Assembly (NCBI RefSeq): GCF_000372465.1
Contig: NZ_AQUZ01000030.1
Location: 1 to 64,000, forward strand
DNA: 64,000 nt
DNA from: Kribbella catacumbae DSM 19601
GTDB lineage: Bacteria; Actinomycetota; Actinomycetes; Propionibacteriales; Kribbellaceae
Direction: 5' to 3'
Shown: positions 3,729-8,514 of the stretch, piece after piece
How positions within the stretch are numbered: position 1 is the first letter of the stretch
How the letters are laid out: every line of letters begins with the position of its first letter
Position numbers and translations under genes: made by a program
The notes under the pieces: model-generated
Told to the model about the DNA's origin: nothing
What the model saw: the letters and a program-made list of their open reading frames with translations, nothing else
Database searches by the model: none

Positions 3729-4205
3729 CTAGACCTTCCTCACGTACCGGTGGCAGGCGACCGGGATGGGGCCGTCGTCTGTCACTGCGGGGTAGTCGAA
3801 GGCGCCGTTCTCGGTCCAGCCGGCGCGTTCGTAGAAGCGGCGGGCGCGGGCGTTGCCGGCGGCAACTGCTAGCCAGGCCTGGTCGTGACCGTTCTCCTTG
3901 ACCTGCCGCGCCGCGTCGGCGAGCAGGGCATCGGCCACGCCCGAGCCGCGGTGTTCACCGGAGACGTAGACCTGCTCGACCTCGTCGGCCACCACCATCA
4001 CGAACCCGGCCACCTCGTCGCCGACCAGCGCGACGGTGGTGTCCGGGATCTTCGCCGGTACGCGGTCCCAGAACGACTCCTTGGTGCGGATTTCGACCAG
4101 CTCGTCCGGTACGTTGCCGAAGTGGCCGTCACCCCATCCGCCGTACCAGATCGAGGCGACGGCATGGGCATCAGCCGCGACCGCGGCGCGCAGGGTGATC
4201 GTCAT
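3729..4205 (-). CDS. GNAT N-acetyltransferase
   Basis: 158 residues beginning MTITLRAAVAADAHAVASI. The acetyl-CoA loop is in EHRGSGVADALLADA around residue 88-100, and the C-terminal ARRFYERAGWTENG is the normal GNAT motif B. It converges on the TetR gene with only five bases between stops. It is transcribed in the same direction as metH, which ends 13 bases upstream of its ATG, so it may be the last gene of the metH transcript. Substrate unknown. Confidence 0.85.
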   Translation of the reverse strand: MTITLRAAVAADAHAVASIWYGGWGDGHFGNVPDELVEIRTKESFWDRVPAKIPDTTVALVGDEVAGFVMVVADEVEQVYVSGEHRGSGVADALLADAARQVKENGHDQAWLAVAAGNARARRFYERAGWTENGAFDYPAVTDDGPIPVACHRYVRKV

Positions 4206-4218
4206 CCCGCCATTTTAG

Positions 4219-7830
<3,612 letters not shown>

Positions 7831-7839
7831 CTTCGGCCA

Positions 7840-7930
7840 CCTCCAGAAGAGTTTCCGGAGGCGCCCTTACTCGGTCGAACCAGACCGAGCGTGGCGGAAC
7901 CCTCCGGGCCCGTCGCAGCGCCTCTCGACC
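7840..7930 (-). promoter_or_regulatory. Putative S-adenosylhomocysteine (SAH) riboswitch in the metH leader
   Basis: On the minus strand the leader contains GAGGCGCUGCGAC (7924-7912), then CCACGCUCGGUC (7894-7883), then AAGGGCGCCUCC. This order and the GCUGCGAC core match the SAH riboswitch class. P1 would pair GGUCGAG (7930-7924) with CUCGGUC (7889-7883). The pseudoknot would pair GAGGCGC (7924-7918) with GCGCCUC (7864-7858). Competing hairpins exist: CUCGGUC with GACCGAG (7876-7870), and CCUCCGGA (7861-7854) with the ribosome site UCUGGAGG (7847-7840). Ligand binding would thus free the metH ribosome site. One core base differs from the consensus as I remember it. Confidence 0.6.
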
Positions 7931-7938
7931 TGGACCGC

Positions 7939-7944
7939 CATCTT
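7939..7944 (-). promoter_or_regulatory. Possible -10 element of the metH promoter
   Basis: The minus strand reads TAAGAT at 7944-7939, which would place a transcription start near 7932, directly at the 5' edge of the proposed riboswitch P1 stem. No clear -35 was seen. This is a weak call based on spacing. Confidence 0.3.
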
Positions 7945-7970
7945 AGTGACCGAGACGGGCGAAGAAAGAA

Positions 7971-8426
7971 TCATTGCCCGACTATTGAGACTACCCGCCG
8001 GTATTCGAGACGGCTCAGAGGTCGCGCAGCGCGTCGATGGTGCCTGCCTCGGGGATCCGGCGCGGTCTCGCTCAGGAAGGCGGTCACGCATTCGACCGCG
8101 ACATCCGGCGCGAGACGCTTGAGGCTGAGCGCGAGAATGTTCGCGTCGTTCCACAGCCGCGCGCCCCGGGCGGTCCACGCATCGCTGACCGTCGCCGCCC
8201 GGGCACCCCGCACCTTGTTGGCAGCCATCGCCGTACCGGTGCCCGTCCAGCACATCAACACCCCGTAGTCGCACTCCCCCGAGACGACCACCTCGGCCAC
8301 CTCTTTCGACATACTCGGCCAGACGGCCGACACGGTCGCCGAGATGACCTCGTGCTCCGCCCTCAGGTAGGCCACGACTGCCTGCACACACTCGTTGTCA
8401 TCATCCGCAGCAAACGCGATCTTCAT
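7971..8426 (-). CDS. RpiB/LacAB-family sugar-phosphate isomerase-like protein
   Basis: 151 residues, the usual RpiB length. The catalytic-cysteine loop reads GVLMCWTGTGTAMAANK with C59, and the later LWNDANILAL corresponds to the conserved NDAN segment. RpiB proteins interconvert ribose-5-P and ribulose-5-P or related sugar phosphates. Two standard features differ: the N-terminal SDHAG motif is AADDDN, and the histidine before NDAN is Trp, so phosphate binding or ring opening may differ and substrate is uncertain. GGGAGGT precedes the ATG at 8426. The gene lies upstream of metH on the same strand but is separated from it by the riboswitch leader. Confidence 0.75.
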   Translation of the reverse strand: MKIAFAADDDNECVQAVVAYLRAEHEVISATVSAVWPSMSKEVAEVVVSGECDYGVLMCWTGTGTAMAANKVRGARAATVSDAWTARGARLWNDANILALSLKRLAPDVAVECVTAFLSETAPDPRGRHHRRAARPLSRLEYRRVVSIVGQ

Positions 8427-8467
8427 CAGCTACCTCCCGAAACCATTCAACCAGCGCCGGGCACAGT

Positions 8468-8514
8468 GAGCGGGCCCGGGCGCTCCGGGGGGTGAGAGTG
8501 CGCCGGGCCCGCTC
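8468..8514. terminator. Strong G+C hairpin
   Basis: GAGCGGGCCCGG at 8468-8479 is exactly complementary to CCGGGCCCGCTC at 8503-8514, with a 23-base loop. It sits 3' of the minus-strand protease pseudogene and upstream of the RpiB-like gene, so it is probably the terminator of the former. No U tract follows, as usual in actinomycetes. Confidence 0.6.

Follow-up and report, generated by a model that had tools for sequence, protein, structure and literature searches.

A probable actinomycete variant of the SAH riboswitch in the leader of metH

Is a methionine synthase gene of an actinomycete controlled by an S-adenosylhomocysteine (SAH) riboswitch? The class (Rfam RF01057; crystal structure 3NPQ) is known mainly from ahcY leaders of beta- and gammaproteobacteria. 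The question is raised by the leader of metH in the window, i.e. the whole 64,000-nt stretch of Kribbella catacumbae DSM 19601 DNA analysed here, where a reading of the letters without database searches (the sequence-only reading) had recognised an aptamer core, a P1 helix, a pseudoknot and two competing hairpins, one of them hiding the ribosome site of metH, along with one deviating conserved base. Matches to RF01057, covariation and complementarity between Shine-Dalgarno (SD) and anti-SD strands in 119 leaders support a leader of the SAH-riboswitch type before this actinomycete metH, and we regard it with good confidence as an actinomycete variant of the SAH riboswitch that acts on translation as an ON switch.

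The aptamer 5' of metH

The presumed regulated gene, metH for B12-dependent methionine synthase, occupies 4219-7830 of the minus strand, on which all features described below also lie, and begins with a GTG codon at 7830. Its 1203-residue product matches NCBIfam TIGR02082 with 1556.6 bits against a cut-off of 1010.85 and contains five Pfam domains of MetH. A gene for a GNAT-family acetyltransferase (3729-4205, minus strand) begins 13 nt past metH, with which it may share a transcript.

On the minus strand, the leader of metH contains every element that had been named, namely the core, P1, the pseudoknot and both competing hairpins (coordinates were read by eye). The core GCGCUGCGAC lies at 7921-7912. 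In P1, the 5' strand GGUCGAG (7930-7924) pairs with the 3' strand CUCGGUC (7889-7883), and the helix gains one pair beyond the seven originally counted, A7931-U7882, extending the strands to 7924-7931 and 7882-7889. The P2 hairpin (7895-7912), supported like P1 by the RF01057 match and by covariation, is formed by 7912-7909 with 7898-7895 and, after a mismatch, by 7907-7906 with 7901-7900 (by eye). The pseudoknot helix P4 joins AGGCGC (7918-7923) to GCGCCU (7859-7864) by six pairs, and the bases of its 3' strand, for which covariation, SD complementarity and the predicted fold all provide evidence, are also the start of the anti-SD. The seventh pair formerly proposed for the pseudoknot, G7924-C7858, competes with the P1 pair G7924-C7889. 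The deviating base is the C at 7891, which we take to be position 30 in Ralstonia numbering; it adjoins A29 (7892), and its proposed partner, the G at position 46, lies at 7866.

The second competing hairpin, CUCGGUC/GACCGAG (7870-7889, with the GACCGAG strand at 7876-7870), does exist in the window, but it occurs exactly in only three rows of the actinomycete alignment A1 described below (L001, L152, L154) and nearly so in a fourth (L021; by eye), and is thus a local feature. As a part of the conserved switch it was rejected, being present in the closest relatives only.

A permissive Rfam scan of 7700-8100 returned RF01057 as the sole match with E < 0.5, at 7932-7852 (minus strand) with 29.9 bits (E 8.2e-4 in 401 nt; model positions 1-78). 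Unlike standard members of the family, the window copy falls under the Rfam gathering cut-off of 37, a score that 17/38 genomes in the genus pass, and a default gathering-threshold scan of the whole window gave no match. Across the whole 9.6-Mb genome the window copy has an E of 0.0046, the next two matches having 3.5 and 8.5. R1, a covariance model trained on 111 distinct actinomycete aptamers, scores it at 73.5 bits, the copy itself belonging to the training set. The folding energy of the window leader is not unusual when compared to shuffles (z -1.27). The SAM/SAH riboswitch RF01727 was absent among matches at E up to 10 in 7700-8100 and from the default scan; according to the available text of PMC7367207 it is likewise a small pseudoknot able to bind SAH, but it has another fold, lies before metK in Rhodobacterales, and its ligand turns translation off.

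Conservation, distribution and target genes

The actinomycete comparison drew on 104 loci found with RF01057, from which five without a full core under the score limit were dropped (L162, L163, L165, L166, L180); none of these has metH in its stretch, and L165 and L166 read G30:C46 in a first pass. L166 (genome G092) matches RF01057 only weakly, at 26 bits; its 5' core, proteobacterial-like with G30, and its J motif are good, but its 3' part is poor, and it is not near metH. Public genomes supplied twenty further actinomycete copies, drawn from 80 metH loci. Alignment A1 comprises 111 distinct actinomycete copies (L040, one of 112, was left out; the ranges of L007 and L183 were set by hand, and the aligned row of L183 reads C:G), and the joint alignment A2 comprises 72 sequences, 33 actinomycete and 39 gammaproteobacterial.

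In A1, 94.6% of cells are paired and the covariation score of 0.186 was reached by 0/500 shuffles; P1, P2 and the P4 pseudoknot each show compensatory changes, and in P4 the paired fraction is 99.8% over the 111 copies. Seven pairs are changed on both sides, a number that 9/500 shuffles also reach. In the combined actinomycete and gammaproteobacterial set, 94.7% of cells are paired and the covariation score is 0.494; controls with slid partners do not exceed 0.126.

Within the genus of the window, RF01057 matches 37/38 genomes, 17 of them over the Rfam cut-off, and the best copy in each of the 37 sits directly 5' of metH (31 loci, i.e. 30 from one search and the window's own, plus six fetched later). 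The RF01057 score and the covariation in related metH leaders, by which the sequence-only reading had proposed to be judged, both came out in its favour, with matches in 37/38 genomes of the genus and compensation in P1, P2 and P4. The one genome without a match (G031) has only a distant metH of 35% identity, and no convincing aptamer was found at that metH locus (10.7 bits, E 1.9). The distant gene and the missing aptamer would fit a replacement of the conventional metH together with its riboswitch, and the 35% type may be the MetHa treated in the available part of PMC4428469.

At E up to 0.02, RF01057 further matches 58/245 genomes in the order, a figure that includes the genus's 37, and at E up to 0.005 it matches 54/394 genomes of a class sample; a few of the weak matches are not real copies. 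In 35 of these 54 genomes no copy exceeds the Rfam cut-off, so that such actinomycete copies are easily missed. With R1, matches at E up to 1e-4 rise to 74/394 genomes in nine families. The notion of a one-species oddity is thereby contradicted, the same form being seen across genus and class. Of the 74 genomes, 21 are absent from the RF01057 finds and carry their copies 5' of metH; these copies, unused in R1, all have C30:G46, an SD-complementary strand and the TANNNT element discussed below (21/21), with 126/126 P4 pairs standard, in a set that is biased towards C30 and G46 as R1 itself expects them. The first actinomycete set, most of which was found with the Rfam model and its expected G30 and C46, is biased in the opposite direction. 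A search of thirty genomes from other groups yielded no match, but had no positive at all, so that absence there is not shown.

The aptamer appears to go with the conventional metH, as its presence varies by MetH type. Among the matches listed, all 39 genomes with the window's type (at least 77% identity) have an aptamer 24-162 nt before the metH match, as do 32/73 with a second type (54-59%) 5' of metH. Two of the 282 other class genomes, in which metH is more distant, fragmentary or lacking, have an aptamer among the matches listed, neither of them before metH; the metH matches are listed by score, and fragmentary genes further down may be missed. In the remaining 41/73 genomes with the 54-59% type no aptamer was detected before metH among the matches listed, and within that type the element seems to have been lost or gained.

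Downstream of 95 of the 99 retained RF01057-found actinomycete copies (37 of the 99 from the window's genus) lies metH. The other four precede ahcY (L150 and L170; TIGR00936, 587 and 611 bits), an adenosine deaminase gene (L164; 587 bits) and a gene for a class I methyltransferase (L176). The targets act in forming, removing or recycling SAH or the compounds derived from it, and the four copies make it probable that the ligand is still SAH; they also point to a small SAH regulon. At L164 (genome G099) the aptamer, with an SD-complementary strand, stands directly before adenosine deaminase, and the metH of that genome is on another contig; the SAM-dependent methyltransferase at L176 (G274) is of unassigned role. 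One genome, G577, carries two aptamers, before ahcY (L170) and before metH (L175), the ahcY leader being about 100 nt longer. In both ahcY leaders, about 100 nt separate GGAGG from the start codon that homology suggests for ahcY, which makes the proposed platform less clear in these two.

The exchanged pair at positions 30 and 46

The deviation noticed earlier in ACGCUCGG is real, but it is not the single change it was taken for, as positions 30 and 46 are exchanged together. All 111 distinct aligned actinomycete copies of A1 have C30 and G46, and all 81 distinct gammaproteobacterial copies counted have G30 and C46. The latter come from 93/125 match places (94 loci, one taken twice); among 12 that the script did not locate, nine agree in reading G:C by eye and three are cut at contig ends. 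A looser first locator had given 79 G:C, 4 A:C, 1 T:T and 1 C:T over 85 gammaproteobacterial copies; the four A:C cases were due to the wrong motif being picked and read G:C with the later locator. Outside the pair count stand the rows G185:C1, G166, G167, G291, G442 and G451 and, within the genus, six second matches that are weak (E 0.15-0.41). In A2, six columns are nearly fixed but different between the groups (majority letter at least 85% in the first and at least 70% in the second), and they make up three exchanged pairs, 12:90, 13:89 and 46:83, of which the last is 30:46 and the other two belong to P4.

The deviating base as the sign of a decayed aptamer was rejected, as it is fixed throughout A1 and its partner is exchanged too. 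Being invariant within actinomycetes, 30:46 gives no covariation signal there, and the exchange, which may be one event on one branch, does not amount to repeated covariation. The alignments suggest that a tertiary pair next to the ligand was swapped with compensation, and the two bases would pair in three dimensions. Searches of the open-licence literature found no statement on the pairing of 30 and 46 in the crystal and no account of their exchange. While the G30 and C46 that RF01057 expects are absent, the pair is exchanged jointly, and for this reason we class the leader as a variant of the SAH riboswitch; very probably it senses SAH and switches metH on, in an actinomycete form with both pocket bases exchanged.

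What the exchange would mean for ligand recognition can be judged from the solved complex, in which, according to the available text of PMC7057144, A29 stacks on the adenine of the ligand, G15, C16, A29 and C46 are its neighbours, and C46 adjoins its homocysteine tail; the Ralstonia numbering assumed here agrees with the residues so named. One proposal is that actinomycetes hold a separate, largely metH-dedicated SAH branch, with 30:46 and two P4 pairs inverted and with a pseudoknot strand that is itself the anti-SD, and that the inverted pair shifts the ligand response (in affinity, or in tolerance of adenosine or SAM) to suit the re-methylation of homocysteine rather than the hydrolysis of SAH. 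We consider this, taken as a whole, unlikely. Distinctly improbable, too, is the explanation that the same fold has another ligand preference, the exchanged pair shifting specificity, e.g. to adenosine, SAM or some other adenosyl compound that would suit metH; in its favour one may invoke the place of C46 by the homocysteine tail, the completeness of the exchange in actinomycetes and the copy before adenosine deaminase. The ligand neighbours G15, C16 and A29 argue against it, being invariant (in the assumed numbering) across the 72 sequences of A2, with G15 and A29 invariant and C16 conserved to at least 90% in A1. An exchange of G:C to C:G keeps the minor-groove acceptors in near-equivalent places, and hence the ligand contact is probably kept. 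The exchange also follows lineage rather than target, as variant copies stand before ahcY as well, and a G30:C46 copy in a gammaproteobacterial MAG precedes metH (L093).

Expression platform and relation to known systems

The hairpin said to hide the ribosome site of metH is borne out: CCUCCGGA (7861-7854) pairs with UCUGGAGG (7847-7840) and covers the GGAGG motif before metH (7840-7844). The thermodynamic fold lengthens it to 11 pairs between the anti-SD at 7863-7853 and 7848-7838, and this OFF hairpin (7838-7863) and P4 exclude each other over five shared bases. The 3' strand of P4 complements the SD motif across 119 leaders, at four positions in 119/119 and at the fifth in 118/119, which predicts a translational ON switch. 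Since the pattern search took as SD whichever GGAGG-like motif came first after P4, and most leaders have CCUCC as their anti-SD, the complementarity partly reflects two common motifs; CCUCC/GGAGG occurs in 91 leaders and CCUUCC/GGAAGG in 22, and the latter, changed on both sides, are the informative ones. In folding models, withholding the P4 bases as a stand-in for the pseudoknot, which the program cannot fold, raises the mean unpaired probability of the SD from 0.03 to 0.45 (up in 118/119 leaders) and that of the window's SD from 0.0001 to 0.41.

A -10-like element, TAAGAT, lies at 7940-7945. TANNNT motifs occur within 24 nt 5' of P1 in 115/118 leaders, against 2/118 further upstream and 14.7% of shuffled 24-mers, and from this enrichment transcription probably starts at the aptamer, in the window at about 7933-7935, the foot of P1. 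A scan with the strict sigma-70 consensus found no promoter.

Sequence comparison establishes a conserved structure, located 5' of metH, with pairings that exclude each other, and a mechanism can be proposed in which SAH would be the ligand and its binding would turn translation on. Transcription would start at the foot of P1, and without ligand 7863-7853 would pair with the SD region and keep translation of metH off. When S-adenosylhomocysteine, a toxic by-product, accumulates, it would fill the pocket and P4 would form, taking five anti-SD bases and freeing GGAGG. The MetH then made would return the homocysteine derived from SAH to methionine.

Transcriptional control is common among riboswitches, and an SAH aptamer might act mainly through early termination rather than on translation; we hold this to be very improbable here, given the SD complementarity in the 119 leaders and the lack of any terminator-like site in a scan of 7700-8500 for intrinsic terminators. 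That a plain SD-sequestering hairpin merely accompanies a conserved leader of other purpose (a protein-binding site or an RNA thermometer), with a chance likeness to SAH riboswitches, is hardly credible, for although the SD hairpin is strong in the predicted fold and the window copy is below the Rfam cut-off, the whole aptamer including the joining core and the pseudoknot is conserved across the class and common to the proteobacterial SAH family, and 17/38 genomes of the genus do exceed that cut-off.

The translational SAH switch favoured here shares with RF01057 the helices P1 and P2, the P4 pseudoknot, the core GCGYUGC, A29, G31 and the AA before position 46, as well as the SAM-cycle genes downstream. 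It differs in having C30:G46 instead of G30:C46, in two P4 end pairs exchanged between AU/GC and GC/AU, and in a target that is mostly metH, not ahcY. Its P4 3' strand doubles as the anti-SD, the comparison with gammaproteobacterial copies covering the aptamer. In the literature, PMC3766115 devotes one sentence to SAH riboswitches of Mycobacteriaceae; this is the same class in actinomycetes, with neither the target gene nor the base exchange named in the portion of the text available. In Comamonadaceae, MetH is a taxon-specific member of the SAH-riboswitch regulon, as metH would be here, but that regulon is proteobacterial and its core is ahcY and metF (available text of PMC4239095). Class-wide control of metH by an actinomycete SAH riboswitch was not found in the open-licence literature, as far as the texts were available, the Mycobacteriaceae sentence being the nearest statement.

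Through the leader of metH, SAH sensing would extend beyond its main setting, the ahcY genes of proteobacteria, to actinomycete metH, over nine families of the class sample. Sequence data alone thus predict, from the exchange at 30 and 46, that a tertiary base pair adjoins the ligand, and the exchange would offer a natural double mutant for how the pocket reads SAH.
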